A DNA stretch of 57,360 bases from Chloroflexota bacterium (GTDB taxonomy: Bacteria > Chloroflexota > Dehalococcoidia > Lucifugimonadales > Lucifugimonadaceae): the NCBI GenBank assembly GCA_018673955.1, contig JABHBJ010000088.1:1-57360 (forward strand). The letters run 5' to 3'. Shown here one piece after another: positions 1,994 to 46,519 of this stretch. The translations under genes were made by a program, and so were the position numbers. How positions within the stretch are numbered: the first letter of the stretch is position 1; every line of letters starts with the position of its first letter. The notes beneath the pieces are model-generated. The model was not told the DNA's origin and made no database searches. It saw only the letters and a program-made list of their open reading frames with translations.

Positions 1994-2180
1994 TTCCGTT
2001 CCTTCAGTGGGCTGGAGAGTTTTCCAGCGCATTCACAATCAAACTTGCACGTAGAATCTTACCGGAGTGTTGGCTGCGGCGAGAAAAGAATTTCTTGAAA
2101 ATTAGCGCGTCCGACAATCGATCTTGCTCGACCTCGCAGAAGAGCAATTACTTTTACTACGCAGTTGGAGTCGCATCAGA

Positions 2181-3143
2181 TTGACCGAATCATCACCGAG
2201 CAACGTGCCCAACAGTCCTAATATTGAATACACAGACTCTGAACTAGAACACGTCGAGAACTCGGTGGTTCGTGCCACCAAAGAAGCTGGCGCCTTCGTG
2301 GCGAGCAGGTTTGGGGGCATTCTCGAGATTTCTCAAAAAGGCGACAAGCCCGGCAAGGACTTGGTGACCGACGCTGATAAGGCTAGCCAACGGATGATCA
2401 CTGAGATCATGTCGGAAACTTGCCCCGATCACATGCTGCTCGGCGAAGAAGACCCACCTGCCGAGGAACCAGCGGCGGCAGATTGGCTCTGGATCGTCGA
2501 TCCGATCGATGGAACAACCAACTTCGTGAACTCGTCGCCGGTCCACGCTGTTTCAGTCGCTGCACTTTTCAGAGGCGAACCAGTTGCTGCTGCAATTTGG
2601 ATTCCGTGGCCGAACTCCGACGGTTACCTGATGATGCACGCGAGGAAAGACCATGGCACGTGGATTGAAGATGCTCAAGTTCATGTCCACAAATCAAGCG
2701 ATTCGGGTGAGCCGATCACTGGCGTGCTTTCGGCTCGACCGGGATGGATCCGACGAATGTTCAATGTCGAAAAGCCTTTAGAAGGTCACTTTGGCGAGAT
2801 ACGCGTAGGCGGAAGTGCCTGCCACGAGCAGTTCTTGGTAGCAAACGGAACAATGCAATACGCCATCACTGGGTTTGCGATGGCATGGGATTTCGCAGCA
2901 GCAACTCTTTTGGTCAAAGAGTCTGGGGGCAAAGTAATGGTGCTCGGATCTAACCAGCGCTTCGTTGAGTTCGATGGTTGGAGTAGCGGATACGCGAACG
3001 ATTCGGCGACGTACGGTCGAATCAGGAAATGGCAAGGGCTACTGCTATCAGGATCGCCAGCCACAGTCGATTTCGTTTCAGCTAATCTCAAACCAAAACG
3101 AAAAGGCCTACTCGGAAAACTTGCTTCGCTAGTAGGTTCGTAA
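2181..3143 (+). CDS. Inositol monophosphatase family protein
   Basis: This is a lithium-sensitive-type phosphomonoesterase of the IMPase/CysQ/SuhB family, which removes phosphate from inositol phosphate, 3'-phosphoadenosine phosphates or similar substrates using bound Mg2+. Visible motifs are the metal-binding GEE, the hallmark WIVDPIDGTTNF, and a C-terminal WDFAAATLLVKESGG corresponding to WDxAAG. The third A replaces the usual G. Substrate cannot be told from sequence. The start is uncertain: no ATG precedes the conserved region. TTG at 2181 has GGAG 11 bases upstream; TTG at 2124 and GTG at 2205 are alternatives. It is divergent from htpX and convergent with the YcaQ-type gene. Proximity to SCO1664/DUF3090 recalls actinobacterial loci carrying cysQ. 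Confidence 0.85.
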   Translation: MTESSPSNVPNSPNIEYTDSELEHVENSVVRATKEAGAFVASRFGGILEISQKGDKPGKDLVTDADKASQRMITEIMSETCPDHMLLGEEDPPAEEPAAADWLWIVDPIDGTTNFVNSSPVHAVSVAALFRGEPVAAAIWIPWPNSDGYLMMHARKDHGTWIEDAQVHVHKSSDSGEPITGVLSARPGWIRRMFNVEKPLEGHFGEIRVGGSACHEQFLVANGTMQYAITGFAMAWDFAAATLLVKESGGKVMVLGSNQRFVEFDGWSSGYANDSATYGRIRKWQGLLLSGSPATVDFVSANLKPKRKGLLGKLASLVGS

Positions 3144-4388: not shown

Positions 4389-5210
4389 TTAGACCATCGG
4401 CCAGGGAACATTGATATCAGGGTCGAGGACAGGATAATGCCCATACTCGATGATCTCGATACCGCGTGTCACGAGATCATCGACCTCTGGCTCGCTAAGC
4501 AACGTGAGTAGTTCACATCTGATGCCAGAATCTGTTTCCAAATCAGCAATTAATGTCTTCACATTGGCGAGCAGTTCGGCAGGATATTCAGACCCGTTGA
4601 ACTCGAACATCACAGTGCGTCGGCGCGCCATCTGGTTGAATGTTAGGCCGTGATCGATCGCCCAAAGTTGGTCCGCTTCATCAAGGATGCAGGATCCACC
4701 CTTGCGATCGGCGTTGTGAACCAACACATCGAACATTGCCATGTCTCGAAAATCGCCCAAGCGTGTATCTCGCATGGAAAAAAAGTTATCCGGCTCTTCA
4801 TCGTCAGGCACAGAAGCCGCATCGATGAACAATTGAACACTACCCTCGCCGTACAGACCCGATCGAATCACGGTTGGCGGAATTAGCGGCCAGCCAAGTT
4901 CTTGAGAAATCAGATACGCGGCTCGTTCACGGTTATGCAGCATCCCTCTCGGAAAATCTCGAAGAGGTCGCTCGCCTGCCTGTGGTTTGTAGATTCCGTA
5001 CATCGAAGCCGATTCGTCAACTTCGATTTCCTCATGCTCTAACTCGGGTTGTGTGTACTTTGAGGGATCGGTCAGACGAACAACGAATACATAGTTCGAT
5101 CCACCGGGATGTAGTCCGATACCAGAAATCGGCCAGTCAGATAATCGCTGCAGCAGAACGCTCTCGGCTACCGGATCAACAGCAGTATCACCATCCGAAC
5201 CAACACTCAC
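4389..5210 (-). CDS. SCO1664 family protein (PI3/4-kinase-like fold)
   Basis: This 273-residue protein has kinase-like motifs of the PI3/4-kinase/HipA type: MYGIYKPQAGERPL resembles the ATP-binding lysine strand, VLVHNADRKGGSCIL the catalytic HNxDRxxxN loop (here G replaces N), and LWAIDHGLTF the metal-binding DxG position. The family is named after Streptomyces SCO1664. Substrate is unknown. Its start overlaps the stop of the DUF3090 gene by four bases (ATGA), so translation is probably coupled. In actinobacteria the same pair is a neighbour of mshC, the mycothiol cysteine ligase; that is prior knowledge of those genomes and no mshC is visible here. Confidence 0.8.
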   Translation of the reverse strand: MSVGSDGDTAVDPVAESVLLQRLSDWPISGIGLHPGGSNYVFVVRLTDPSKYTQPELEHEEIEVDESASMYGIYKPQAGERPLRDFPRGMLHNRERAAYLISQELGWPLIPPTVIRSGLYGEGSVQLFIDAASVPDDEEPDNFFSMRDTRLGDFRDMAMFDVLVHNADRKGGSCILDEADQLWAIDHGLTFNQMARRRTVMFEFNGSEYPAELLANVKTLIADLETDSGIRCELLTLLSEPEVDDLVTRGIEIIEYGHYPVLDPDINVPWPMV

Positions 5211-5752
5211 GAGTGTTCTTCGCCCATTGGGTTTTCCGTTGGATTATAGCCATTTACCTTGACGCAGAAATGGGTGTCGCCCGGATTAAGTGGAACCTCG
5301 CACAGGGGGCACGGTTTGCGGCCAGCTGCAACGATTGAAACCGATCGCTTCATGATTTCCTCAGCCTGCGGGCGTTGGAAACTAAATGTAATTTCTGAAA
5401 TTGGTTCGGGCGAATCTTCTCTCGGAATATCGCTAGCGACAATGGTGAACACATCTGAAGCGGGGTCGTGTTGAAGCGACATGTCACCCGTTTTGAACTC
5501 GACATGCACAGGTACTGGCGAGTCGATGGGAGGCACAGTGAACAGTGCAGGATCAGGTGGAGCATCACGAGTCGATAAGAACTGTTGCAGCGAAACACCT
5601 ACCTGAAATAGCTGTTCCTTTTCCATCCAAACAATCGTTTGACCACGGCTGCTTCGAGCGGTGATGTTGAAAGTACGTTGCCCCGGTTCACCGATTGTCT
5701 CGCAATGGAGATAGTCGACGAGGCCCAGATCGTTTCGTTCGAACTCGCTCAA
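5207..5752 (-). CDS. DUF3090 family protein
   Basis: This 181-residue protein is of DUF3090, a family without assigned function that is found in actinobacteria and Chloroflexi and paired with SCO1664-like proteins. The N-terminus (LGLVDYLHCETIGEPGQRTF) and the C-terminal zinc-finger-like arrangement CPLCEVPLNPGDTHFC are characteristic: two Cys separated by two residues, then H and C eleven and thirteen residues on. A structural zinc site is likely. It is the first gene of the two-gene unit with the SCO1664-like gene; the 140 bases upstream are free and separate it from the divergent cimA leader. Confidence 0.85.
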   Translation of the reverse strand: MSEFERNDLGLVDYLHCETIGEPGQRTFNITARSSRGQTIVWMEKEQLFQVGVSLQQFLSTRDAPPDPALFTVPPIDSPVPVHVEFKTGDMSLQHDPASDVFTIVASDIPREDSPEPISEITFSFQRPQAEEIMKRSVSIVAAGRKPCPLCEVPLNPGDTHFCVKVNGYNPTENPMGEEHS

Positions 5753-25321: not shown

Positions 25322-26239
25322 TTGTCTATCCAAACCAACCTTCAGATTCGGAATTTCAAATGGTCTGATATCGACGCTCTTCAGCGATTGCTGAACGAGA
25401 TCGGAAGACATGGTCACAGAAATTGGCCTGCCAACGCCGACGAGCTACGTGCCGAACTGGAATTTCCTAGAGTTAAGCCGAAACGAAACATTGCTCTAGC
25501 GGAACAAGATGATCAGATCGTCGGTTACGCGATTGTCGAACTCGAAACAAACATTGGGCGTTCGGTTATCGGTATTGCCAGCAGTTCCATGGGACTGGCA
25601 ATCCGCAAAGACCTGATCGACTGGGCAACGAATAACGCTGCGCGGGAAACTCCGATAGCTCACCTGTCTACTCGTGACAATGAAACCGAGCTTGAAAAGT
25701 TAATCGCACAACTTGGATGGTCGAAAGTACGTCGGTACTTAAAACTCACGACGTCATCGAATATCACCCCGGCAGTTGCGGCTGTTCCTGATGGATTCAC
25801 GGTAAGAACAATGTTGGGGCTCGACGAAGTACCCGAACTAACCTTTACCCAGAACGAGGCGTTCAAAGAACACTTTGGATATTCACCGAACACCGAAGAC
25901 GAAATTACCGCAAGACTACTTGCAGGTAATTCCAGTCTCGACAATATCGTTATGATTCACGATTCATACGAACAGTTGGTGGCCTACTGCTGGACACTCA
26001 TTCATGAACGTGATGGGCTGAAAGTCGGACGAATCGGGATGACGGGCGTGCTGCCTACGGCTCGAAAACAGGGCCTAGGGCGAGCAATCGCCGAAGTAGG
26101 GTTTAATCATCTGGTTCGCCAAAACGTCGATTCGATAGAGCTGGATGTCGATTCAGAAAACGCCCGAGCAATCCACGTCTATTCGTCGTTAGGTTTCGAA
26201 AATGATAGTGAAGTTAGTTGGTGGGAACGGGCTCTTTAG
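25322..26239 (+). CDS. Tandem GNAT acetyltransferase, mycothiol synthase (MshD)-like
   Basis: This 305-residue protein has two GNAT-like halves: residues 1-150 a degenerate copy and residues 160-305 a complete one, with GMTGVLPTARKQGLGRAIAEVG as the acetyl-CoA loop and IELDVDSENARAIHVYSSLGFE at the end. The two-domain plan and the LDVDxxNxxAxxxYxxLGF pattern resemble MshD, which acetylates Cys-GlcN-Ins, but tandem GNATs of other specificity look similar. The start is a TTG at 25322. It is convergent with, and overlaps by 26 bases, an MshA-like glycosyltransferase, and is divergent from the ilv cluster. Confidence 0.7.
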   Translation: MSIQTNLQIRNFKWSDIDALQRLLNEIGRHGHRNWPANADELRAELEFPRVKPKRNIALAEQDDQIVGYAIVELETNIGRSVIGIASSSMGLAIRKDLIDWATNNAARETPIAHLSTRDNETELEKLIAQLGWSKVRRYLKLTTSSNITPAVAAVPDGFTVRTMLGLDEVPELTFTQNEAFKEHFGYSPNTEDEITARLLAGNSSLDNIVMIHDSYEQLVAYCWTLIHERDGLKVGRIGMTGVLPTARKQGLGRAIAEVGFNHLVRQNVDSIELDVDSENARAIHVYSSLGFENDSEVSWWERAL

Positions 26240-27434
26240 CCTGTACCGGCACTAGCTTTCGGTAGTTATCAAGCAACGCATCCGTCGAGCGATCCCAGCT
26301 CAGTGTTTCAGCGTGCTGTCTTGCTGCATCACCCATTCGATATCTCAGAACATCATTCTTAAGAAGTTCGCACAGACGCTCAGCCATTACATCGCTCTGA
26401 TTAGCGGGAACAAGGTATCCAGTTGTGCCACTTTTGACGATCGTAGGTAATCCTCCGACGTCAGACGCAACTACCGGTCGTCCACAAGCTGCCGCTTCGA
26501 GCGCCGCTAGACCAAAGCTTTCATAGTGAGATGGCAGCACACAGACATCGGCGGCGCTGTAGTGATAGGGAAGCTCGTCTTGACTTATCGAACCAATGAA
26601 ATTCACCGACTGTGTAAGTTTCATTCGACTTGCCAACGTTTGCAGACGTGCTTTCTCTTGCGAGTTCTCGTCACCACCAACAACGTTCAACGTTACCTTG
26701 GTTGGGTTTTCAAAGCTCGCAACGGCACGGAAAAGGTTGTCGAGACCTTTCAATGGCTCGAGGCGACCAACAAATAAGATGTTCATTTCATCGCCGTACC
26801 CGAGGTAATCACGAGACTGTCGCTGTGACATAGGGCGAAATCGTATGAGGTCGACTCCCGGTGGAATCACATCTATTTTTGCTGGATCTATTTCACAATA
26901 TTCAGCAACTGCAGCGCGTTCATGCTCAGTCCAAACTACGACCGAATCTGCGGAGCAGGCGATGTCCCTTTCTGCGATATCACGCTGAGCGACTTCTGAT
27001 TCTTCAGGCATTCCCCGTCGCTTCATCTCGGCCATTGTATGGAAGCTTGTCGTGTGCGGCACGCCCCACTCAGAAGCCAAACACATAGCAACGAGACCCG
27101 AAAGCCAGTAGTGACTGCTAATGATGTCGTATTTGAGGTGGTTAGATACACAGAACCTGCGCATTTGAGATGCGAACTGTGGAAGCAGTTCGTACACACC
27201 AGTCTTGTCCAACAAGGGCGGACCAGCTGGCAGGTGAATTAATCGAGCCCCCGGAGCGAGCATCACGATCTGAGGGTCAAGCGAGTCATGGTGGCGCGTA
27301 AACACATCAACTTGAATTCCCCGAGCGGCAAGTCGTTTTGCCATCTCAAGAATGTATATGTTCATTCCGCCGGAGTCTTTGCCGCCTGCTTGGCGCATAG
27401 GACATCCGTGGACTGTGATTACTGCTACGTTCAT
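26214..27434 (-). CDS. GT4 glycosyltransferase, MshA-like
   Basis: This 406-residue retaining GT4 enzyme contains KDSGGMNIYILEMAKRLAARGI near the N-terminus (the MshA/sucrose-phosphate-synthase signature), SSHYWLSGLVA, TTSFHTMAEMK, VIPPGVDLIRFRP, FVGRLEPLKG, and the nucleotide-binding SHYESFGLAALEAAACGRPVVASDVGGLP. A lysine in PPLLDKTGVYE, the Tyr of SHYW and the Thr of HTM sit where MshA contacts the inositol phosphate. It would then form GlcNAc-inositol-phosphate, but other sugar transfer is possible. It is the last gene of a same-strand run with thrC and hom, and 12 bases downstream of the FemAB-like gene. Confidence 0.75.
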   Translation of the reverse strand: MNVAVITVHGCPMRQAGGKDSGGMNIYILEMAKRLAARGIQVDVFTRHHDSLDPQIVMLAPGARLIHLPAGPPLLDKTGVYELLPQFASQMRRFCVSNHLKYDIISSHYWLSGLVAMCLASEWGVPHTTSFHTMAEMKRRGMPEESEVAQRDIAERDIACSADSVVVWTEHERAAVAEYCEIDPAKIDVIPPGVDLIRFRPMSQRQSRDYLGYGDEMNILFVGRLEPLKGLDNLFRAVASFENPTKVTLNVVGGDENSQEKARLQTLASRMKLTQSVNFIGSISQDELPYHYSAADVCVLPSHYESFGLAALEAAACGRPVVASDVGGLPTIVKSGTTGYLVPANQSDVMAERLCELLKNDVLRYRMGDAARQHAETLSWDRSTDALLDNYRKLVPVQAKEPVPTN

Positions 27435-27446
27435 ATTCGTTGGAAT

Positions 27447-28460
27447 CTAGTTCCCCTGAGCCCCTAAGCCGCGTTTTGCCGTTAATACAAATATCTGCCG
27501 GTCGACCCCACCGAGATGGTATTTGTATGGCTCATTCCCGCGCATGAAATCGAACACTCTGTGACCTGATTGAATAGACGATTTTATCGTCAGAGCGTGA
27601 TTCAATAATCCAACCGACAGGTTAGATTGTGCTGGGTTATAACCACTGTTATATAAATAACGCACTTCACCAGACACAAATGACAACGATGTAGCTTCCC
27701 TTACGCCATCTATTTCCAAGAAGCAAAGTCGCGTAATACCTTCACGTGCCAATTCGATAGCGATCTTGCAGAAAAATTGTTCACGTTCGGTAGTCATGAA
27801 CGCTCTTTTGTCGGGAGTGCTCATGCGGTGGAGTCGAATGAAGTCAGCCATAGAATTTTCGATATCAGTAGGGTCCGAAAGTTCCACGTGATTAACTTCG
27901 CCAACAGCTTCTAATCGGCGCAATTTTCGACGAAGCTCGTGTCGATCTTTTTTCCTGAGAGCAGAGACGTATTCGTCCCAACTGGCTGGTAAATCCATGC
28001 GAGGAGCGACATCTTCTTGTTCAAGCTCGACTTGCCAACCTGCATTTTCCGCTTTTTCACGAAATTGAGTAATCGTCGGTGAATTACCAGGAAGAGATTG
28101 AAGCAAGATGGTGTCGATCTCTGACATCTGGCTCACCGCAGACACGAGTGATTGAATACAAGTCGAGCTAAGTCGATCCCTTGAAAGAAAATCGTGATAG
28201 TCGACCAGATCGGTACTCCCGAGAAAGCTGATCTCAGAACCATCTATCATTAGGGGGGCGATCATATTCACTTCACCTGATTCAGAACGAACCATGATGA
28301 GCTGGAGTTCGGAATCGTTTCCAAACTCAGACCACCACGTTTTCTGCCACGTTTGCGAATCGAAGAATGTCGGTTCGGCACTATTTTCCAGAATCTGCTG
28401 CCAGTGATCTGCGAGACTTTCGAAAGTCCCCTGCTCAATCCCAGCGCTACAACAAGTCAT
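27447..28460 (-). CDS. GNAT/FemAB-like acyltransferase (BioF2 / CelD-type)
   Basis: This 337-residue protein resembles the CelD/BcsL and BioF2-type acetyltransferase group with a FemAB/GNAT fold. Clues are the LRKKDRHELRRKLRRLEAVGEV basic helix, the KRAFMTTEREQFF stretch, and the final RVFDFMRGNEPYKYHLG, the F-DFMRG-E-YKxxLG motif typical of the family. In the cell it may add an acyl or aminoacyl group to sugars or peptides. The gene is adjacent to the MshA-like GT (12-base gap), so it may modify its product. Function is otherwise open. Confidence 0.7.
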   Translation of the reverse strand: MTCCSAGIEQGTFESLADHWQQILENSAEPTFFDSQTWQKTWWSEFGNDSELQLIMVRSESGEVNMIAPLMIDGSEISFLGSTDLVDYHDFLSRDRLSSTCIQSLVSAVSQMSEIDTILLQSLPGNSPTITQFREKAENAGWQVELEQEDVAPRMDLPASWDEYVSALRKKDRHELRRKLRRLEAVGEVNHVELSDPTDIENSMADFIRLHRMSTPDKRAFMTTEREQFFCKIAIELAREGITRLCFLEIDGVREATSLSFVSGEVRYLYNSGYNPAQSNLSVGLLNHALTIKSSIQSGHRVFDFMRGNEPYKYHLGGVDRQIFVLTAKRGLGAQGN

Positions 28461-28521
28461 TTTTTTAGACGTTCCTTAGTCAGCACAAATATGCGAATTC
28501 CATGACGCAAGTCAGCAGTAG

Positions 28522-29583
28522 TTACTTGCCGCTGTTCAGTAGATTCATAACTGAATCGATATCTGGTTCAACGTATTCAAGCTCAATGAGGGCTCGCTTC
28601 TCCGCTGTACCGGGATCTTTCAGTCCGTTACCAGTTAATATGCAGACTATGGTCTTGCCGGTCAGGTCTACACCTAGCTCAGGCAGCTTAATCAACCCAG
28701 CTACCGATGCGGAGGAGGCTGGCTCACAGAAAATGCCCTCTTCTCTAGCCAATCGTAAGTAAGCATCGATAATCTCGTTATCGTCGACGATGTCGATCAT
28801 GCCTTCAGACTCGTCTCTGGCGGCTTCTGCTTTTTCCCAACTTGCAGGGTTGCCAATTCGAATCGCCGTCGCAATCGTCTCAGGCTTCAATACGGGTTTC
28901 CCTAGAACAATCGGTGCTGCTCCCGCTGCTTGAAATCCCATCATTTTGGGCGTCGTTTCGGATCTGCCCAATGACTGATACTCGTTAAAGCCCTTCCAGT
29001 AAGCAGTGATATTACCGGCATTGCCTACAGGTATACAAAGCATGTCAGGCGCTTCGCCAAGTTCGTCGACAATCTCGAAAGCGCCAGTTTTCTGGCCTTC
29101 GATTCGGTATGGGTTGACCGAGTTGACCAACTCTATATCCATGATTTCAACGATACTCCGAACGGCAGTAAGGGCGTCGTCGAAGCTACCATTTACAGCG
29201 AGGATTCGAGCACCGTACGCCATTGCCTGTGCGAGCTTACCAAGTGCGATTTCACCGGCTGGGACCAACACGAGCGTTTCTAGTTGATAGCGTGCGCCAT
29301 AGGCTGCTGCTGCGGCGCTGGTATTACCAGTGGAAGCGCATATGATTCGCTTTTTGCCAGCCTCAAGGGCTTTCGCAATCGCCATAACCATGCCGCGATC
29401 TTTAAACGACCCGGTTGGATTACAGCCTTCGAGTTTGAAATATAGGTCTTTGCAACCGAGCGAATCTCCAATGTTCTGAGATCTTACGAGCGGAGTGCTC
29501 CCTTCTCCCAATGAGACTGACGGTGTGGCAGCCGTAACAGGCAGAAATTCGCGGTACCTGTCTATCAATCCAAAGTTCGTCAA
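28522..29583 (-). CDS. thrC: Threonine synthase
   Basis: PLP-dependent beta/gamma-elimination and replacement converting O-phosphohomoserine to threonine. The 353-residue short form has VSLGEGSTPLVRSQNIG, the PLP-lysine motif GSFKDRGMVMAIAKA, CASTGNTSAAAAAYGARY, and a C-terminal CILTGNGLKDPGT. It follows hom on the same strand (71 bases downstream), so homoserine dehydrogenase and threonine synthase are next to each other. No homoserine kinase is visible in the window. The start is TTG at 29583 with AGGAG 12 bases upstream. Confidence 0.93.
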   Translation of the reverse strand: MTNFGLIDRYREFLPVTAATPSVSLGEGSTPLVRSQNIGDSLGCKDLYFKLEGCNPTGSFKDRGMVMAIAKALEAGKKRIICASTGNTSAAAAAYGARYQLETLVLVPAGEIALGKLAQAMAYGARILAVNGSFDDALTAVRSIVEIMDIELVNSVNPYRIEGQKTGAFEIVDELGEAPDMLCIPVGNAGNITAYWKGFNEYQSLGRSETTPKMMGFQAAGAAPIVLGKPVLKPETIATAIRIGNPASWEKAEAARDESEGMIDIVDDNEIIDAYLRLAREEGIFCEPASSASVAGLIKLPELGVDLTGKTIVCILTGNGLKDPGTAEKRALIELEYVEPDIDSVMNLLNSGK

Positions 29584-29654
29584 CGAAAGGAACGCTCCTG
29601 ATCAAGCCGAGTCAAAGCTCGGCTACTATCGAAAACTCGGGGGCCGGGGAGGGA

Positions 29655-30971
29655 TTAACACCGATCACCGTATTTTTCAACCCGCAGCAAACTGTCCAAT
29701 TGAAGAACAGTATCAAGTTCCTTAATAGATCGCACGGCACTCTGCATATTAGTCTCGCGCGCTGGGTGAGTCATTATGACCAAGTCGGCATGGCTGTTTT
29801 CTGTGTCAGTATCTTTTTGCAGTACGGAATTGATACCAATGTCTGCATCGCCCAGAATTCTTGCAACACTCGCAAGCACTCCCGGTCGATCAGAAGCAGT
29901 TAATCGGATGTAGTACTGGCACTTGTGATCAGACATCGATGCGATAGCGAATGATTCAGGTACCGACGATGATCCACCATCGTTTATTGCGCCTTTCGCA
30001 ATTCTCAGCACATCTCCCATAACAGCACTGGCTGTTGGGTTTGGTCCTGCTCCAGGGCCTTGGAACCAAAGTGGTCCAACCAGATCACCTTCGACTTCAA
30101 CGGTGTTCAATACACCGTTCACCGAAGCCATCGGAACATCAAGTGGAATCAACGCAGGATGCACGCGGGCAAGTAGACCTGAATCCGCATTCGCCTGAGC
30201 CACAGCGAGAAGTTTAATGGTGTAACCGAGTTCGCTGGCGTACCGGAAGTCCTTCGTATGAATTTCGCGAATGCCCTCTCGATGAATCACGTCAACCGGG
30301 ACTTCGGTGTGGAACGCAAGCCGTGCGAGAACAGAAATCTTATACAGCGCATCGAAGCCATCGACATCCGCAGTCGGGTCTGATTCAGCGTAACCTAGCG
30401 CCTGTGCTTCTGCGAGCACGTCGTCGAAGTCGGCGCCTTCGTTGGCCATTTTCGTAAGAATGAAATTCGTCGTTCCGTTAATGATTCCGCGGACACTCTG
30501 GATCTTGTTCCCCGTAAGATCGTTCATCAGCGGGCCTATGATCGGTATGCCCCCTGCGACGCTCGCTTCGTAGTACAGGCAAACGTTATTTTCAGCCGCA
30601 GTGGCGAGCAGTTGGCTCCCGTACTTTGCCATGACTTCTTTGTTCGCGGTGACTACGTGCTGACCAGCATTAAGGGAACTCGTTATGTAGCTGAACGCCG
30701 GATCAACACCACCCATCAATTCAACGACAATTCCAACCTCAGGGTTGGCAATTACGGTTTCGAGATTTGTCGAGACCGTACTGGAATCGATAGTCACATC
30801 ACGTTTTCGTGAGGGATCTCGAACCACAGCAGCCACTACGTTGAGAGAAAGTGCAGGATCTATCGAACGGTGTCGCTGACTGATGGCATTCGCGACCGCC
30901 GAACCGACAACACCAAGACCAAGTAGACCAACGCCCGTTGGCGGGTTGTCCGTCTTTGCTGAATTTGCCAT
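29655..30971 (-). CDS. hom: Homoserine dehydrogenase
   Basis: NAD(P)-dependent reduction of aspartate semialdehyde to homoserine. The 438-residue protein has the GLLGLGVVGSAVANA dinucleotide motif, catalytic-domain signature AGGIPIIGPL and NGTTNFILTKM, and a C-terminal ACT domain from about residue 352 (YYIRLTASDRPGVLASVARILGDADIGINSVLQ), so threonine feedback is expected. Its start lies three bases after the stop of the foldase gene, indicating one transcript. Confidence 0.95.
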   Translation of the reverse strand: MANSAKTDNPPTGVGLLGLGVVGSAVANAISQRHRSIDPALSLNVVAAVVRDPSRKRDVTIDSSTVSTNLETVIANPEVGIVVELMGGVDPAFSYITSSLNAGQHVVTANKEVMAKYGSQLLATAAENNVCLYYEASVAGGIPIIGPLMNDLTGNKIQSVRGIINGTTNFILTKMANEGADFDDVLAEAQALGYAESDPTADVDGFDALYKISVLARLAFHTEVPVDVIHREGIREIHTKDFRYASELGYTIKLLAVAQANADSGLLARVHPALIPLDVPMASVNGVLNTVEVEGDLVGPLWFQGPGAGPNPTASAVMGDVLRIAKGAINDGGSSSVPESFAIASMSDHKCQYYIRLTASDRPGVLASVARILGDADIGINSVLQKDTDTENSHADLVIMTHPARETNMQSAVRSIKELDTVLQLDSLLRVEKYGDRC

Positions 30972-30974
30972 TGA

Positions 30975-32165
30975 CTACTGACCAGCCAGAGCAGCAGCGC
31001 CAAACGGAGGTGGAGTCGGAGTAGGAATAATTGCTGAAAGACGAACTTGGGCGTTCACCCAATCGAAGATTGCGCTATCCAAAACCATGTGAAGATCGAA
31101 ATTACGCTGTTCTTCGTTGAAGAAAATTGTCATGCCCCGAGAAGTCAGCAATTCGAAATTTTCCGGATCCACTTCGCGAGCGTCGTTCACTTCAGCAACT
31201 ACTAAGTAGGACCACCAGTTGTTCTCTTCGTCGAAACGTGGCGAGCTCGGCGTTCGAATCGGCAATAGCCGTTCTCCATCCCCGTCGAGACCAAACATGA
31301 GAGCATCGAGCTCTGGAATAACACCGAAAGGCTTCCAGCCCTGATCACCAAGATTCCGACTGGCGTTCGGGTCGTCAGAATACTGAAGCACTACGCTCTC
31401 CATTGTTGCTCCCGCAACTAACGTACGCTCGATCGCTCGACGATCTTCGGAATCATTAGAAAGTCTAATGATTTCGTAGATATGTACTTGAGCTTGAACA
31501 CGCGGAATTGTGTCGCCTATAACGTCTCGTAGTCGCTCTTTAAACATGCTCTTTCGAATGAAATCTCTGAAAACCTTTTCATCAATACCAATACGGTGGA
31601 TGAACTGTCGCTTAGCTTCTTCGACATTGTCCTTGTATTCCTGAGACTCTAGTTCTGCGACGGTAACTGCGACAAAACCAAGGATGGAGTTCAGTCGTTC
31701 GTCAACATCTTCAGCACTTACCGCAATGCCGTAGCGAGGTGCGAGTTGAAACGCTAACTCGTTTTCCTGCAGGGTCTGCAAAGAGTCGAACAGCGAGTTT
31801 CCAATTTCAAACGGAACGCCCAGATTTTCACTCATCCGTTGATTGAAACGAATGAAGTTGACTACGTCTCCACGGCTGTATTCAGTGCCTTCAACTCTGA
31901 GAGCGAGCTCACGCGGAGGAAATACGTAGTTCTGAAAATAGGCATAAACCGGAATCGCCAGCAGACCAATCAAAACCACTAGACCAACGATCATAAATGG
32001 CCGGGTTCTAACTTGAAATTGATGTTGTTCGTTGACCATTTCGCGGCGGGTTTTACCACCACGGACAGTGATACTACGACGACCAGCTTCGTAGTCGGGT
32101 ATAGGCCCCCCGGGTACCGGTTTCTGCTCTTCGTTGCGATCTTCAGTTGAGTCTTCTGTGGACAT
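30975..32165 (-). CDS. Membrane-anchored SurA/PpiC-like foldase
   Basis: This 396-residue protein has a ~55-residue charged cytoplasmic head, one transmembrane helix near 57-77 (FMIVGLVVLIGLLAIPVYAYF), then an extracytoplasmic region with a SurA N-terminal-like helical domain and a parvulin-like segment about residues 225-330 (VQAQVHIYEIIRLSNDSE, a QYSDDPNASRNLGDQGW pattern). The tail is proline-rich (IPTPTPPP). It would help fold exported proteins; whether the parvulin part is catalytically active is not evident. It sits between rpsR (88-base gap) and hom (3-base gap). Confidence 0.75.
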   Translation of the reverse strand: MSTEDSTEDRNEEQKPVPGGPIPDYEAGRRSITVRGGKTRREMVNEQHQFQVRTRPFMIVGLVVLIGLLAIPVYAYFQNYVFPPRELALRVEGTEYSRGDVVNFIRFNQRMSENLGVPFEIGNSLFDSLQTLQENELAFQLAPRYGIAVSAEDVDERLNSILGFVAVTVAELESQEYKDNVEEAKRQFIHRIGIDEKVFRDFIRKSMFKERLRDVIGDTIPRVQAQVHIYEIIRLSNDSEDRRAIERTLVAGATMESVVLQYSDDPNASRNLGDQGWKPFGVIPELDALMFGLDGDGERLLPIRTPSSPRFDEENNWWSYLVVAEVNDAREVDPENFELLTSRGMTIFFNEEQRNFDLHMVLDSAIFDWVNAQVRLSAIIPTPTPPPFGAAALAGQ

Positions 32166-32253
32166 TTTCGGCGCTTGCTACTGCTGCGACCGTGGATCGC
32201 TTCAAAAGCAATACCTCCGGCCATACTAACGTTGAATTGCCTGCGAGAAGAGG

Positions 32254-32799
32254 TTACTTCTCTTCTTCGTCAGAACTATCATCTACGGTTTCTGAAGCCT
32301 CTTCAGATGGAACGTCTTCGGTAACCTCATCGGTTTCCTCTGACGATTCCTCAGCAACTTCAGTGGAAACTTCTTCAGCAACCGCTTCGGTTTCCCGTGA
32401 CGCAGTTTCTTCTGTTGATTCCTCAACGGCTTCAGCTACCACAGTAGCTTCATCAGCCTCGGTGCTAGTTTCTTCTTCAGTCGTTTCTTCTTCGTCTGAA
32501 ATCTTTCCGCCGGCGGAAACAGTTCCAGTTACACGCAGGTGATCAGGAGCGTAAGGAAGCAGGGCCAAATGACGCGCACGCTTAATAGCCGTCGTCAGGT
32601 TTCTCTGGCACTTCGCACAGTTGCCAGATTTTTTTCCGGCTTCAATGCGACCACGGTCAGTGATGAATCGCCGGATGCTTGAAACATCTTTGTAGTCAAC
32701 GGTGCTCTCTTTGCAGTAGCACTGGCGTCGACGTCGGGCTCCGCCGCGGCGGAATGGTGGGCGACCTGCGGCATCTTGAGTTGTTCGGGGGGGTGTCAT
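32254..32799 (-). CDS. rpsR: Ribosomal protein bS18 with long acidic C-terminal extension
   Basis: Residues 1-95 are a standard S18, with the zinc-type cysteines C27-x-C29 and C61-x-x-C64 (GNCAKCQR), the DYKDVSSIRRFITDRGRI core and TTAIKRARHLALLPY. Residues about 97-181 form an extra tail of mostly Glu, Ser, Thr, Val and Asp with almost no basic residues. The normal protein is about 75-95 residues, so the tail nearly doubles the length. The gene follows rpsF and ssb as usual. The start is GTG/ATG near 32799. Confidence 0.93.
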   Translation of the reverse strand: MTPPRTTQDAAGRPPFRRGGARRRRQCYCKESTVDYKDVSSIRRFITDRGRIEAGKKSGNCAKCQRNLTTAIKRARHLALLPYAPDHLRVTGTVSAGGKISDEEETTEEETSTEADEATVVAEAVEESTEETASRETEAVAEEVSTEVAEESSEETDEVTEDVPSEEASETVDDSSDEEEK

Positions 32800-32867
32800 T
32801 TTTTACCTCGCGGAAAGGACAGCAGAACTATTCGACAACTTGCCAAACTTGTCCTGCACGGAAACTG

Positions 32868-33326
32868 CTACCAGGGCAGTTCCTCCACGTCTTCTGATGG
32901 GTTATTTACAGCAGTAGATTGTTGAGCCGGAGACCCAAGTGGCTCTGCTGAATAAGATTGGGCTTGCGGCGGTGCGCCACTTCCCGTTGATTCACCGCCA
33001 GGAGAATCAAGGAAAACGACCTTGAAAGCTCTAACTTCTAGCGATGTGCGGGCCTCACCCGAACTGCTTGTATACTGACGTGTCGATAACCGACCATCAA
33101 CAAACACTCGGCGACCCTTTGCCAAATACTGGTTTACCGATTCTGCCTGACGCTCCCAAGCGGTAACTCGGAACCATTCGGTTTCTTCGGTCCATTCACC
33201 TTTTTCGTCACGCCTGTTGTTGTTCACAGCAAGGCTGAAACTTGTAACTGGAGTGCCACTTGGCGTGTAACGCATCTCAGGATCGTTACCTGCCCGGCCA
33301 ATAAGAAGTATCTGGTTAAGACTCAA
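32868..33326 (-). CDS. ssb: Single-stranded DNA-binding protein
   Basis: The 152-residue OB-fold protein starts at a TTG at 33326, giving MSLNQILLIGRAGNDPEMRYTPSGTPV; longer upstream reading adds residues that do not match the family and overlap rpsF. Visible are FSLAVNNNRRDEKGEW, WFRVTAWERQAESVNQYLAKGRRVFVDGRL, a Gly/Ser/Gln-rich linker, and an acidic tip EDVEELPW where partners dock (usual DDDLPF, here ending in W). It lies between rpsF and rpsR, the usual replication/ribosome operon order. Confidence 0.95.
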   Translation of the reverse strand: MSLNQILLIGRAGNDPEMRYTPSGTPVTSFSLAVNNNRRDEKGEWTEETEWFRVTAWERQAESVNQYLAKGRRVFVDGRLSTRQYTSSSGEARTSLEVRAFKVVFLDSPGGESTGSGAPPQAQSYSAEPLGSPAQQSTAVNNPSEDVEELPW

Positions 33327-33360
33327 TTGAAATCCATCCGTACTAGCTAAAAGCCAGACT

Positions 33361-33678
33361 CTACTCAGCTTCTTCGGTAACAACAACCGGCTTGATCTCA
33401 TCGCGAACGAGGAGATGGCGGATGATCGACTGATCGGCGCCAATCGCTCGTTCGAGCTCAGGAGCCTTGGTAGCATCGATTTCGAAGTTCGCCTGAAGGT
33501 AGTAACCCGCGGTGTTCTTCAGAATTGGGTAAGCCAATGTGCGCTTACCCCATACGTCAGTGCCTGAAACTTCACCGCCGACACCGGCTACAAGTGAAGT
33601 GATTTTTTCTACGGATTCGGTACCCTGCTCTTCGTCAGCTTCGCTACCTAGAATCCAAACTAATTCGTACTTTCTCAA
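33361..33678 (-). CDS. rpsF: Ribosomal protein bS6
   Basis: Small-subunit protein that binds S18 in the ribosome's platform. The start at TTG 33678 gives MRKYELVWIL, the normal N-terminus, with a GGTGG ribosome-binding site just upstream; a longer TTG start at 33711 would add 11 residues. The 105-residue protein shows VWGKRTLAYPILKNTAGYYLQANFEI and ends with a short acidic tail. It is the first gene of the rpsF-ssb-rpsR order. Confidence 0.95.
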   Translation of the reverse strand: MRKYELVWILGSEADEEQGTESVEKITSLVAGVGGEVSGTDVWGKRTLAYPILKNTAGYYLQANFEIDATKAPELERAIGADQSIIRHLLVRDEIKPVVVTEEAE

Positions 33679-33811
33679 CGATCCACCGTGTTCTTTATAA
33701 TTTTGAGCCAAACACGTTCAGTCTATCACGCGATTACGTCTCGTCAGCCACAATTTTTGCAGTAGCTGACGCTAGTTCCAAGCTAAGTGTCACTTTTCGA
33801 CCATAAAACCA

Positions 33812-35056
33812 CTAGGAATCGAGACCCGGGACTGGGAATTTCGATGCAAACTTGGCGACTTCGCCACCAAGCTTCGCAAGTGCAGATTCATTGTCGTGAG
33901 CCTTAACTGCTTCGAGAATATAACCCGCAACGTGTTCCATATCAGTCACATTCATCTCACGTGAGGTAAGTGCTGGAGTACCGATTCGGATACCAGATGT
34001 GACCATCGGCGACTCAGGATCGAATGGAATGGTATTTTTGTTTACCACTAACCCAGCAGTAATCAGAGCTGCTTCTGCATTCTTACCTGTAAGGCCAATC
34101 GACCGAGTGTCGACGAGCATCATGTGGTTCTCTGATCCGCCCGCGACGATTCTCAGTCCACCAGCAGCAAGCCCGCTGGCTAGTGCCTTCGAATTCTGAA
34201 CGACCTGATTTGCGTAGTCCTTGAATTCAGGTTGCATGGCCTCTTTAAACGCAACTGCCTTACCGGCGATTGCGTGTTCCATTGGGCCGCCCTGCATATT
34301 TGGAAATACTGCGGAGTTATACTTGCGGCGAAGCGACTTTTTAGTGAGAGCCATTGCGCCACGAGGGCCCCGAAGGGTTTTGTGGGTCGTGCTCGTTACG
34401 ATGTCGGCATATTGAACAGGCGACGGGTGAGCACCACCGGCGATGAGACCAGCAATGTGGGCCATGTCGACCAACAGGTAGGCACCGACTGAATCGGCAA
34501 TTTCACGGAAGCGTTTGAAGTCGATGGTCATCGGATATGCGGTGTAACCGGCGATGATGATCTTTGGCTGAAACTCTTGCGCCTGTTTTTCGACAGCGTC
34601 GTAATTGAGTGCTTCAGTGTCGGGATCAACTCCATAGTGGCCGAATTCGTATAGCTTGCCCGAGAAATTCACAGGCGATCCGTGAGTAAGGTGACCACCG
34701 TGGTCGAGCGACATTGCCATCACTTTGTCGCCAGGATCAGCGAGAGTGAAGAATGCTGCCATGTTGGCCTGCGAACCAGAGTGAGGCTGAACATTGGCGT
34801 GATCGGCTCCGAATAGATCTTTTGCGCGATCAATCGCAAGCTGCTCGCTAATATCGACGTTTTCACATCCAGCGTAGTAGCGTCGCCCCGGGTACCCCTC
34901 GGCGTACTTGTTTGTGAGAACAGAACCGCCAGTTTCTAGAACGGCAGCACTGGTGTAGTTCTCAGATGCGATCATCACCAGTTGATCACGCTGACGTCGC
35001 TGTTCATTTTCTATTACTTTCGCGATTTCAGGATCAAAAGTGGAAATTGCCGACAT
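33812..35056 (-). CDS. glyA: Serine hydroxymethyltransferase
   Basis: PLP-dependent interconversion of serine and glycine with tetrahydrofolate, supplying one-carbon units. The 414-residue protein shows NKYAEGYPGRRYYAGCENVD, NVQPHSGSQANMAAF, VDMAHIAGLIAGG, and the PLP-lysine motif TSTTHKTLRGPRGA. Upstream (35118-35150) there are AT-rich palindromes that may be operator sequences. It is alone on the minus strand, ahead of the rpsF cluster. Confidence 0.97.
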   Translation of the reverse strand: MSAISTFDPEIAKVIENEQRRQRDQLVMIASENYTSAAVLETGGSVLTNKYAEGYPGRRYYAGCENVDISEQLAIDRAKDLFGADHANVQPHSGSQANMAAFFTLADPGDKVMAMSLDHGGHLTHGSPVNFSGKLYEFGHYGVDPDTEALNYDAVEKQAQEFQPKIIIAGYTAYPMTIDFKRFREIADSVGAYLLVDMAHIAGLIAGGAHPSPVQYADIVTSTTHKTLRGPRGAMALTKKSLRRKYNSAVFPNMQGGPMEHAIAGKAVAFKEAMQPEFKDYANQVVQNSKALASGLAAGGLRIVAGGSENHMMLVDTRSIGLTGKNAEAALITAGLVVNKNTIPFDPESPMVTSGIRIGTPALTSREMNVTDMEHVAGYILEAVKAHDNESALAKLGGEVAKFASKFPVPGLDS

Positions 35057-35117
35057 GGGATCTCCGATATAGGGTTCCAGCGCACTTTTCAGGGCGTGGA
35101 TACTGTTGCTTTGCTAG

Positions 35118-35150
35118 CAAATATTTGTTGAATTTAATTTTGAAATTCAA
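35118..35150 (-). promoter_or_regulatory. AT-rich dyads upstream of glyA
   Basis: CAAATATTTG (35118-35127) is a perfect palindrome and TTGAATTT/AAATTCAA (35128-35135 and 35143-35150) a spaced inverted repeat, both between glyA and the divergent PIG-L gene. They could be operators or parts of the promoters. No further support. Confidence 0.3.
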
Positions 35151-35288
35151 ATGCAGATTTTAAGTCTATAGCTGGCACCAAAAATTCGCCGCTCTTCCTT
35201 CAATAATCACTAATATTTCGTTAGCACTCGTTATGATGTGTTGCCTTACGCCCAAGATTTGATGCGCTTCCCCTGCTGAGGACAATCT

Positions 35289-36041
35289 ATGACCTACCCC
35301 TTTTCGATGCCAAACCAGGTGACGAATTTCGATGCTATCGACTACGTCCCAAAACGGGCAATGGTAATTTTCGCCCACCCTGACGATGCTGAAATTGGTG
35401 CAGGCGCAACAGCCGCGCTTTGGGCGGATAAGGGTTGCGAGATTACGTATGTTCAGTGCACAACGGGTAGTAGCGGAAGCAACGATACGGAGATGACTTC
35501 GGAGCGCATAGTTGCGATACGATCTGTCGAACAGCGCGCTGCTGCGGATGCAATTGGCGTTAGCGACATCGTTGTTTTAGATCACCCAGACGGCGAACTT
35601 GAAGCCGGCCGCGTGTTTTTAGGTGAAGTCGTTCACGCATTACGCAAGTATCGACCCGAAGTCGTGTTCACCCACGATCAGCACAGAATTCACCGCTTCC
35701 AGCACCGTGACCACCGAAATGTTGGTATTACGGTTCAGGACGCGGTGTATCCATATGCTCGAGATCATCTGCACTTCCCCGAGCAGCTCGTCGATGGCAT
35801 CAAACCGTATAAAGTGAAGCACATATTCTTCTGGGGTACTGACATCCCCGATGTGATCGTCGATGTGTCTGATTCTGTCGATACAAAAATCAACGCACTT
35901 TCCAAACATGAAAGCCAGCTGCCAGGACTATCGTTCGGTTCAGATATGGATCTCCGAGTGCGCGCTCGACACTCTGATGCTGCCAAAGGCTACGGCTTCA
36001 AATATGGCGAATCGTTTCGACGCCTCACCGCCCGTACTTAA
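35289..36041 (+). CDS. PIG-L family deacetylase (MshB/BshB-like)
   Basis: This 250-residue zinc hydrolase of the LmbE/PIG-L group deacetylates GlcNAc-linked substrates. The zinc motif AHPDDAEIGAGA is near residue 31, and a later HRDH (in FQHRDHRNVG) supplies the third ligand. Members include MshB (mycothiol), BshB (bacillithiol) and lincosamide/other antibiotic deacetylases. The start ATG at 35289 has GAGG upstream. Seventeen bases downstream is the CapC-like phosphoesterase, so both may be in one unit. Substrate is not shown. Confidence 0.85.
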   Translation: MTYPFSMPNQVTNFDAIDYVPKRAMVIFAHPDDAEIGAGATAALWADKGCEITYVQCTTGSSGSNDTEMTSERIVAIRSVEQRAAADAIGVSDIVVLDHPDGELEAGRVFLGEVVHALRKYRPEVVFTHDQHRIHRFQHRDHRNVGITVQDAVYPYARDHLHFPEQLVDGIKPYKVKHIFFWGTDIPDVIVDVSDSVDTKINALSKHESQLPGLSFGSDMDLRVRARHSDAAKGYGFKYGESFRRLTART

Positions 36042-36057
36042 TTGAGACTGTAACTGA

Positions 36058-36945
36058 ATGCCACGAGTCGACTTACACACACATATCCTATCCGGCCTAG
36101 ATGATGGCCCTGTAACCGTAGAAGAAAGCCTAGCGATGGCTCGCTTAGCAGCGAGTGATGGCACCGATATCATCGTGGCTACGCCTCACTACCGGGATGT
36201 GGAGCTTGAACATCATTCGTCTCCTATCGTTAGCGAATTAGCCGATACACTGAATGCCGCACTCCGAAGCGACACTCTTCGAGAGAGCACCCCTCCAGTA
36301 CGAATACTCACTGGGATGACCCATCGACTTGATATGTCGCTCCCAGATTTAGTTGACTCTGAATCAGCGATCACATTGAATAGAACACGGTTTCTACTAG
36401 TCGAGCCGCCTTTTAGCCGACTTCCTTCTTATGTGGAAGAAGTTATCGGACGCCTTCTGACTCAGCGGCTCGTGCCTGTAATTGCTCATCCTGAGCGAAA
36501 TATTTTATTTCAGCAAAACCCGAACCGACTGCAACATTTGGTCGATGATGGCGTGATTGTTCAGGTAGCTTCAGGCAGTCTGACCGGCGAGAATGGCGAC
36601 AACGCTCGGCGAGCCGCAGAACTTTACATAAGGCGTGGTTTGGCACACGTGGTTTCATCTGAAATGCACAGCGAACGGGCGTCACGGCCACCACAATTGA
36701 GCGAGGCGTTTGAGAAAGTTGTCGATCTGGTTGGTTATCCAGAAGCGATCGATATTTTCGAGACTAATCCTGACATGATCCTTCAGGGTCGAACACCTCA
36801 ACGCGAACGTGTTGCACAATCTCTCTTTAAACGAAGCTGGATGCGGAAGCCAACGATTGAAATGAGTAATCGAATAGCCGAACGAACACGGCAATCGTGG
36901 AAACAAACATTCCGTAGGGCTATGCGGCGGACAACCCGCGGATAA
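36058..36945 (+). CDS. CpsB/CapC-type PHP phosphoesterase
   Basis: This 295-residue protein is of the CapC/CpsB/YwqE tyrosine phosphatase group with a PHP fold. Metal motifs DLHTHIL at residues 5-11, TPHY, HPERN and a late VVSSEMHSE are visible; the last differs from the usual SDAH, with E in place of D. Members dephosphorylate tyrosine kinases that control polysaccharide export. The C-terminal 50 residues are strongly basic (RKPTIEMSNRIAERTRQ). The gene is 17 bases after the PIG-L gene and converges with the PAP2 gene, overlapping it by 26 bases. Confidence 0.8.
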   Translation: MPRVDLHTHILSGLDDGPVTVEESLAMARLAASDGTDIIVATPHYRDVELEHHSSPIVSELADTLNAALRSDTLRESTPPVRILTGMTHRLDMSLPDLVDSESAITLNRTRFLLVEPPFSRLPSYVEEVIGRLLTQRLVPVIAHPERNILFQQNPNRLQHLVDDGVIVQVASGSLTGENGDNARRAAELYIRRGLAHVVSSEMHSERASRPPQLSEAFEKVVDLVGYPEAIDIFETNPDMILQGRTPQRERVAQSLFKRSWMRKPTIEMSNRIAERTRQSWKQTFRRAMRRTTRG

Positions 36946-44557: not shown

Positions 44558-46519
44558 ATGACTTCTCACGACCAATCTTCTTCCCAACCTTTGTACGGCG
44601 TCCACACCATTCGCGATGTGATGATGCCAATGCGTGACGGCATTAATCTCGCCACAGATATTTTTCTTCCATGTCACGGTGACGGTCGAGTAGTCGACGC
44701 CAGCGAGCAAGTGCCTGCACTCCTCGTTCGGACCTCGTACGACAAGACGGCTCCCGAGTGGGACGATGTGATTCCGTATTACGTGCGGCGTGGCTACGCA
44801 TTCGTCGTTCAAGATCTACGATCTCGTTTCCGCTCTGAGGGCGACGGTCACTACTACCACACAGTGAATCCGTGGGAGGGCGACGACGGGTACGACACTG
44901 TCGAGTGGCTCGCCGAGCAAGATTGGTGCTCCGGCAAGATTGGAACTTTGGGGTCTTCTCACCGAGCTATCACTCAAACCCAGCTGGCACTTCGCAAACC
45001 TCCTCACCTCGCCGCTATGTGGGTTGAAGCGGGTCCGACTGACATCTACCGACATGAGGCTCGCGAAGGCGGAGCCATGTCGCTGCAGATGTTCGGCGCT
45101 GCACATCTACACGCCCTAGATAGCCACGAAGTTGGCGACGATCCCGAGAAAGCCAGGATCATCTTAGACGCCATGCGCGACATGCCCAAGTGGCTACAAA
45201 AATTTCCGCTAAAGCCGGGAGAGACAGCTCTGCGAGTCGCCCCTGATCTCGAAAAGACTGTTTTCGACTACTACTACCGGGGTGAGTACGACGAGTGGTG
45301 GTCGCAAGAATCGGCTAATCAGGAGCCGTTACTCGAAGCTGGTGAACACGCCGATGTAGCCGTGACTGTTTCGTGCGGATGGTACGATAATTTTGTCGGT
45401 GCTACGGCAAATTATTTCAAAACGTTGAACCACCAAAACGAGTCACCGACACGACTTGTTCTCGGAGCTTGGTGACACGGCGGCACACGGTCCACTGGTC
45501 AGTGGCATGGAGATACGGACACAGGTGCAGATAGCGTTTGGGGTTCGGAGATTTACAATCCGGAGAGGCTGAAGTTTTTCGATGAGCACTTGAAGGGAAT
45601 GGAAGCGAGAGAGAACGATCCGCCCGTGCGGATTTATGTTATGGGTACTGGCGATGGCAAGAAAACCCCTGAGGGTCACTTGAATCATGGCGGTTACTGG
45701 CGTGACGAGAACGAATGGCCGCTCGAACGAGCTCAGTTCCAAACGCTCTATCTGCATGATGATGGATCGCTCGATTCGTTCGAGGCGATGGAGGACGATA
45801 GCTCAGTAACGTACACGTATAATCCAGAAAAGCCGGTGCCAACGGTTGGTGGTCAGCTGGTCGGCATGTTCAAGATCAAATCACCTGAAGACGGTGGTCC
45901 CGCAGTCGACGATGTTCCAGAATTTCTCGATCAGTGGACACTCGCTCGCAATAATCTAACCGAAGTAATCGCTGCTGGTGGGTTCCATCAAAAGGAAGGT
46001 CCCGAATGGATCGGTGCCGAGGAGCCGTATCAGCTACTGAAAGATCGTTCAGACGTTTTAGCGTTCGAAACTGATCCACTGGAAGACGATACGGAAGTCA
46101 CCGGCGAAGTGATGATAAAGCTGTGGGTGTCGTCGACCGCGAGCGATACTGATTTCACGGTGAAGCTAATCGACGTTTACCCGATGAGCGATGACTATCC
46201 CGAGGGCTATCACCTGAACCTGTCTGACACGATTTTGCGGGCTCGCTACCGCAATTCGTGGACCGATCCTGAAATGATGACCCCGGGCGAGCCAGCCGAA
46301 GTTTCGATCACCCTTTGGCCGACGTCGAGTGTGTTCAAGAAGGGACATCGCATTCGACTGGATATTTCGAGTTCAAACTTTCCTCGATTCGACGTAAACC
46401 CGAACACGGGCGAGCCGGTTGGGCGTCATACCCATATGCTCAAAGCTGATAACACGATTCACACCGGTGCTGATCACCCATCGAGGATAGTGCTGCCGAT
46501 TATTCCCGCTGTGGAGTAG
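44558..46519 (+). pseudogene. Second CocE/NonD family hydrolase, interrupted by an in-frame TGA
   Basis: The frame is open from ATG 44558 to TAG 46517-46519 apart from one TGA at 45473-45475, and the flanking parts join in the same frame: LVLGAW before, HGGTRSTGQW after. TGA falls exactly where the residue before the catalytic His (here His307) should be, in the usual GPWxH motif. The N-terminal part resembles 42522-44237, with nucleophile Ser134, but GxSxxG reads GSSHRA, so the last Gly is Ala. The C-terminal part has DTDFTVKLIDVYPMS and KKGHRIRLDISSSNFPRFD. It is either a recent pseudogene or, less likely, a recoded or misread codon. Confidence 0.75.

Follow-up and report, generated by a model that had tools for sequence, protein, structure and literature searches.

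A possible mycothiol-type pathway in SAR202 Chloroflexota with a FemAB-like candidate in place of the ligase MshC

Do genes that resemble parts of mycothiol biosynthesis belong to a low-molecular-weight thiol pathway outside actinobacteria, and, if so, which enzyme would perform the ligase step? We addressed this question for a 57,360-nucleotide stretch of DNA (the window, analysed as a whole), contig C32 in a metagenome-assembled genome (MAG) of 2.2 Mb and 87% completeness from the SAR202 group (Dehalococcoidia, Chloroflexota). An original prediction had named a glycosyltransferase, a PIG-L deacetylase, a tandem GNAT, an inositol monophosphatase and an SCO1664/DUF3090 pair, all of which were found where it had placed them. 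Tentatively, and at slightly less than an even chance, we favor for Chloroflexota a pathway of mycothiol type whose MshC step would be taken over by a FemAB-like, tRNA-dependent enzyme. This reading is based on gene presence, pocket conservation in the glycosyltransferase, gene neighborhoods, the failure to find MshC or BshC, the alternation of FemAB with a second gene of the cysteinyl-tRNA synthetase (CysRS) family, and the fold of a predicted model. The genes at its center are the following:

26214..27434, minus strand: MshA-like GT4 glycosyltransferase, predicted UDP-GlcNAc:inositol-phosphate transferase (TIGR03449, PDB matches, pocket residues, tree)
27447..28460, minus strand: FemAB-like double-GNAT protein, candidate aminoacyl-tRNA-dependent transferase standing in for MshC (PF13480, 90.5 bits)
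35289..36041, plus strand: PIG-L/LmbE deacetylase, candidate MshB/BshB-type de-N-acetylase (PF02585, 103 bits; BshB1 model, 103 bits)
25322..26239, plus strand: tandem GNAT of MshD-like fold, possible N-acyl cap enzyme (convergent with the GT4 gene, whose end it overlaps)

The assignment of the glycosyltransferase as MshA-like was supported by its model score and its pocket residues. The protein scored 361 bits against the MshA model TIGR03449, short of the cut-off of 462.5, as compared with 105 bits for the sucrose-phosphate-synthase model and 124 bits for the BshA model, and its top match among PDB chains was MshA (3c4q, 236 bits). The residues that we take to bind the ligands of MshA (His9, Asp20-Asn25, Lys78, Tyr110, Thr134 and Arg154) are all conserved. 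The phylogeny, a check proposed beforehand, agreed in part: Corynebacterium glutamicum MshA fell inside the Chloroflexota set, paired with two Chloroflexota rows (100/96), in a tree of 49 rows (44 of 85 loci used) whose backbone is unresolved and whose bootstrap did not settle. It holds one MshA reference because no broad actinobacterial MshA set was among the plasmid matches listed. The same tree leaves the single sucrose-phosphate-synthase row at the base of the set, not separated from it, and the second-best solved chain, Tll1590 (6kih, 209 bits over the full length), is presumably a cyanobacterial sucrose-phosphate synthase; both would suit a sucrose-phosphate-synthase-like or other sugar-phosphate transferase, serving for example osmolytes. 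However, MshA and Tll1590 differ at five pocket positions (20, 21, 24, 78 and 134) at which the window protein agrees with MshA, which together with the model scores renders such a function very improbable. Besides C. glutamicum, Deinobacterium chartae was the only control with an MshA-model match at E <=1e-80, and it also has BshC.

The failure to find MshC, already pointed out for the window, extends to the MAG and to a complete one-contig genome of the same genus (G013) that served as congener comparison. The only CysRS-family gene found in the MAG encodes CysRS (cysS model 499 bits, cut-off 340; MshC model 300 bits, cut-off 485), its protein scoring 421 bits to solved CysRS versus 236 to solved MshC, and the only such gene of the congener is likewise CysRS (507 and 305 bits). 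Canonical mycothiol in the host was rejected because no MshC was found in either genome, and bacillithiol because the BshC family (PF10079) was found in none of 60 genomes, the controls Bacillus subtilis, Thermus and Deinobacterium being positive. None of the 60 relatives and none of 301 Chloroflexota genomes exceeded the MshC cut-off; at E <=1e-105 the same model matched 108 of the 301. Of the genomes in one CysRS-family search, all 17 with two or more copies have at least one truncated like MshC, and one truncated protein is marginally nearer solved MshC (326 bits) than CysRS (317 bits). Three genomes from other families of the same order have a second CysRS-family gene in which a CysRS-like part is fused to a family-2 glycosyltransferase-like (GT2) part (738-775 aa; L031:2012-4225, L033:5269-7593, L036:3045-5327), with a normal CysRS elsewhere in the genome.

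The 301 Chloroflexota genomes were searched for GT4, MshC, the FemAB-like profile and CysRS-family genes. GT4 was scored as present at an MshA-model E <=1e-80 (208 genomes), absence meaning no match at that level (G023, for example, has a homologue detected with the window protein), and FemAB at >=240 bits (87 genomes), 27 genomes with weaker matches (<240 bits) not being counted. Among the 208 GT4-bearing genomes, FemAB is accompanied by no more than one CysRS-family gene in 68, FemAB is missing but a second gene of the CysRS family or of MshC-like type is present in 118 (93 on a strict MshC-like list), and 7 have neither partner. Counting any second CysRS-family gene overstates MshC-like genes, since three second copies tested, from order-level relatives, are CysRS-GT2 fusions. 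On the strict list the split is 80 FemAB, 93 MshC-like, 3 both and 32 neither. At least one of the two partners occurs in 201 of the 208 GT4-bearing genomes versus 28 of the 93 others. By majority, 27 of 62 families carry FemAB, 28 a second CysRS-family gene and 5 both; the remaining two (f48 and f55) have no majority, genomes within one family carrying either FemAB or the second gene. An early hunch that the FemAB-like gene beside the glycosyltransferase might matter fits this phylum-wide alternation.

The order hom, thrC, FemAB-like, GT4 was found in 15/15 SAR202-type loci compared, with the GNAT convergent behind GT4 in 14 (alignments A1 and A3 omit L025, which has unknown letters; L019, where no GNAT was matched, is missing from A3 as well). 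FemAB adjoins GT4 in 43 of the 64 genomes, out of 87 with FemAB, for which both positions were listed. Contiguous FemAB-GT4-PIG-L trios occur in 15/43 FemAB-bearing loci, including one from outside the class (L045, G148). In G107, which we take to be Dehalococcoides mccartyi 195, the three genes are spaced by 3 and 12 bases and lie near genes resembling tuf, nusG and ribosomal proteins, named by eye from their sequences. Other neighbors of GT4 loci are hom, thrC and ilv/leu genes.

PF13480 is the only model matched by the FemAB-like protein of the window, whereas among 25 relatives PF04339 (FemAB_like) was matched by 11 and PF02388 (FemAB) by 2. Searches of PDB by sequence returned no chain, whether the query was the profile (E <=0.1) or the window protein (E <=10). 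The predicted model has a double-GNAT fold that appears nearest to FemX, FemA and Sbb17, aminoacyl-tRNA-dependent transferases, with which the protein would share a basic helix and an invariant lysine near the C-terminus: Tyr312-Lys313 is invariant in 25/25 relatives (alignment A2, 25 of 43 FemAB rows), at a C-terminal distance similar to that of FemX Lys305, a likeness of position only. Unlike these enzymes, it has partner genes that point to a glucosaminyl-inositol acceptor. Known FemABX relatives, among them Sbb17/Sba18 (with streptothrisamine) and Orf11 of BD-12 (the latter from excerpts of PMC12945691), aminoacylate amino groups of small molecules. The FemAB-like protein is a candidate, judged from its modeled fold and its position beside GT4, for an aminoacyl-tRNA-dependent transferase replacing MshC.

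Inositol supply was traced with PF01658 (Ino1), since PF07994 (5/60) missed the Corynebacterium control. The family is present in 112/119 members of the class, in 77/77 high-quality ones and in 53/60 relatives, including the complete congener, and two relatives tested have Ino1 of TIGR03450 type (516 and 536 bits, below the cut-off of 638). The expectation that Ino1 would be found thus held for the genus and most relatives, but not for the 87% complete MAG. In the congener and in D. mccartyi, Ino1 heads a run that continues with a GT4 and a phosphatidylinositol-phosphate-synthase-like gene (L170:6898-9826 and L171:5004-8075); in the MAG the GT4 matching the Ino1-following one begins at base 138 of L002, a stretch presumed to start at contig base 1, so that the contig breaks just upstream of these genes and Ino1 would lie just off it. 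Ino1 points to a capacity for making inositol phosphate without showing a thiol to be its purpose.

The PIG-L protein, expected to supply the MshB step, is indeed a deacetylase by family, with HPDD and HRDH in its translation, but a generic one, scoring 33 bits against the MshB model (cut-off 224) and 103 against BshB1 (cut-off 182.5). The tandem GNAT did not hold up as the MshD step: it has the MshD fold and scored 95.6 bits against the MshD model, below the cut-off of 163.1, and the residue that we take to be the MshD base, E234, aligns to an arginine. E234 is named in an excerpt of PMC4964394.

On these grounds, Ino1 would supply inositol phosphate, to which the MshA-like GT4 would transfer GlcNAc; a phosphatase and the PIG-L deacetylase would yield GlcN-inositol; and the glucosamine amine would then receive an amino acid, in the simplest case cysteine delivered by Cys-tRNA, from the FemAB-like protein instead of an MshC ligase. 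A cap may be added to the product by the tandem GNAT in SAR202, and elsewhere in the phylum the ligase step would be carried out by an MshC-like enzyme. Like the mycothiol pathway of Actinobacteria (MshA, MshB, MshC and MshD), the set has a GT4 with an inositol-phosphate pocket, a PIG-L protein and, in two relatives tested, a TIGR03450-type Ino1, and truncated, MshC-like paralogues of CysRS occur in many other Chloroflexota; unlike it, no MshC was found in the host or the congener, a FemAB-like gene lies beside GT4, there is no true MshD, and no Msh model cut-off is reached. The bacillithiol pathway (BshA, BshB and BshC) is similar in its glycosyltransferase-deacetylase logic and in the model nearest to the PIG-L protein, BshB1, and differs in the low BshA score and the missing BshC. 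A wider proposal is that in Dehalococcoidia, SAR202 and Dehalococcoides among them, the FemAB-like enzyme transfers Cys from Cys-tRNA to glucosaminyl-inositol to give a mycothiol-like thiol, that this ligase is evolutionarily interchangeable with the synthetase-derived MshC, and that Chloroflexota with an MshC-like gene make mycothiol or a close relative; taken as a whole we consider it possible but doubtful.

Several points weigh against a tRNA-dependent FemAB-like ligase in a thiol pathway. All substrates, the use of tRNA, the cysteine and the thiol are inferred, and the MshA cut-off is reached in 0/301 Chloroflexota genomes. FemAB is not beside the listed GT4 in 21 of the 64 genomes (f32, f47, f64, f76, f95, f97 and f98). 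Both FemAB and a second CysRS-family gene occur in 15 of the 208 GT4-bearing genomes (six in f79; four in f70, of which only G221 is on the MshC-like list), and FemAB adjoins GT4 in 13 of these 15. Strict exclusion of FemAB and MshC is weakened, the overlap being 3/87 on the strict list and 15/83 GT4-bearing FemAB genomes when any second CysRS-family gene is counted. In f48 and f55, several of the genomes that show the swap are incomplete MAGs, and Fisher p-values serve as a guide only, since the genomes are related and the values overstate independence. The window PIG-L is possibly a paralogue of the copy adjoining GT4 elsewhere: it groups weakly (88/73) with a second, non-adjacent copy of L107, in a tree too weak to settle orthology. 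By predicted fold, FemX, FemA and Sbb17/Sba18 outrank CoA-dependent GNATs by a small margin, and by Foldseek E-value VipF acetyltransferases take ranks 5 and 6, with model TM-scores of 0.39-0.40 versus 0.59-0.61 for the first four matches. The FemAB-like protein might then be a CoA-dependent N-acyltransferase, substituting for MshD or acylating glucosamine, with another ligase in MshC-less lineages; we regard this as unlikely, given the fold ranking and because FemAB and the second CysRS-family gene usually replace rather than accompany one another.

The remaining points concern lipids and surface glycans. PF13480 proteins are also found in exopolysaccharide settings, and Ino1 beside a GT4 and a phosphatidylinositol-phosphate-synthase-like gene implies that inositol is already used in lipids, the run suggesting phosphatidylinositol-type lipids in Dehalococcoidia. 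A serious rival, although in our estimate a somewhat unlikely one, is that the FemAB-GT4-PIG-L trio makes a modified membrane or surface glycan, for instance a glucosaminyl-phosphatidylinositol-like lipid whose amine is aminoacylated or acylated by the FemAB-like protein, with no free thiol. In agreement with such a modified inositol lipid, excerpts of PMC4964394 have FemABX enzymes working on cell-wall precursors, and a CpsB/PHP gene adjoins the window PIG-L. On the other hand, GT4 retains the MshA pocket for free inositol phosphate, its partner alternates with an MshC-like gene, and the neighbors (hom, thrC and ilv/leu, or the tuf- and ribosomal-protein-like genes seen by eye in Dehalococcoides) form no polysaccharide cluster.

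In our view, a pathway of thiol type outside the actinobacteria is plausible. Excerpts of PMC6336425 describe mycothiol as the thiol of actinomycetes and report a novel, unassigned thiol in Chloroflexus aurantiacus, and an excerpt of PMC6123686 lists, by annotation name alone, a mycothiol maleylpyruvate isomerase gene in an Arctic SAR202 MAG. A review of synthetase-like peptide ligases (PMC2922099, in excerpt) sets MshC beside Fem-type ligases as a parallel solution found in other pathways; no description of a FemAB/MshC-like swap was recognized in the literature searched, partly in excerpt, which is not proof of its being unpublished. The genes described here provide thiol candidates for part of the Chloroflexota (MshA-like GT4 with an MshC-like ligase) and a different candidate ligase, FemAB-like, for Dehalococcoidia, including SAR202 and the organohalide-respiring Dehalococcoides. 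If the tRNA-dependent reading is true, cysteine is joined to glucosaminyl-inositol in two unrelated ways that have taken each other's place, and the use of a tRNA-dependent ligase to build a low-molecular-weight thiol would be a novel route to molecules of this kind. The ligase question can be tested in existing cultures.

Searching with the GT4 protein retrieved SAR202/Dehalococcoidia genomes, including the complete 3,094,136-base chromosome of Candidatus Lucifugimonas marina JH1073. Further features of the window are:

28522..29583, minus strand: threonine synthase, upstream neighbor in the same gene run (synteny; TIGR00260, 319.7 bits, above cut-off)
29655..30971, minus strand: homoserine dehydrogenase, upstream neighbor (NF004976, 507 bits, over cut-off; synteny)
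36058..36945, plus strand: PHP/CpsB-like phosphatase adjoining PIG-L (PF19567, 141.7 bits)
2124..3143, plus strand: unspecific member of the inositol monophosphatase family (PF00459, 150.9 bits; specific models not reached)
4389..5752, minus strand: SCO1664 and DUF3090 pair (TIGR03843, 188 bits, above cut-off; PF11290, 91 bits)

No support was found for the inositol monophosphatase or the SCO1664/DUF3090 pair as pathway parts. The former, proposed for the dephosphorylation step, is generic, as is PIG-L, and nothing indicates that it belongs to the module. The latter had been linked to mshC by neighborhood; the pair lies on C32 and the host CysRS on C94, and tblastn matched it in 0/16 neighborhoods of MshC-like genes fetched, a weak absence because the queries were the window's own diverged copies. 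A 396-aa protein encoded in front of hom (30975-32165) is kept in 15/15 SAR202-type loci compared and had no match among Pfam and NCBIfam models at E 0.001. At 44558-46519, two adjacent open reading frames correspond to the first and last parts of one CocE/NonD hydrolase model, like a split gene.
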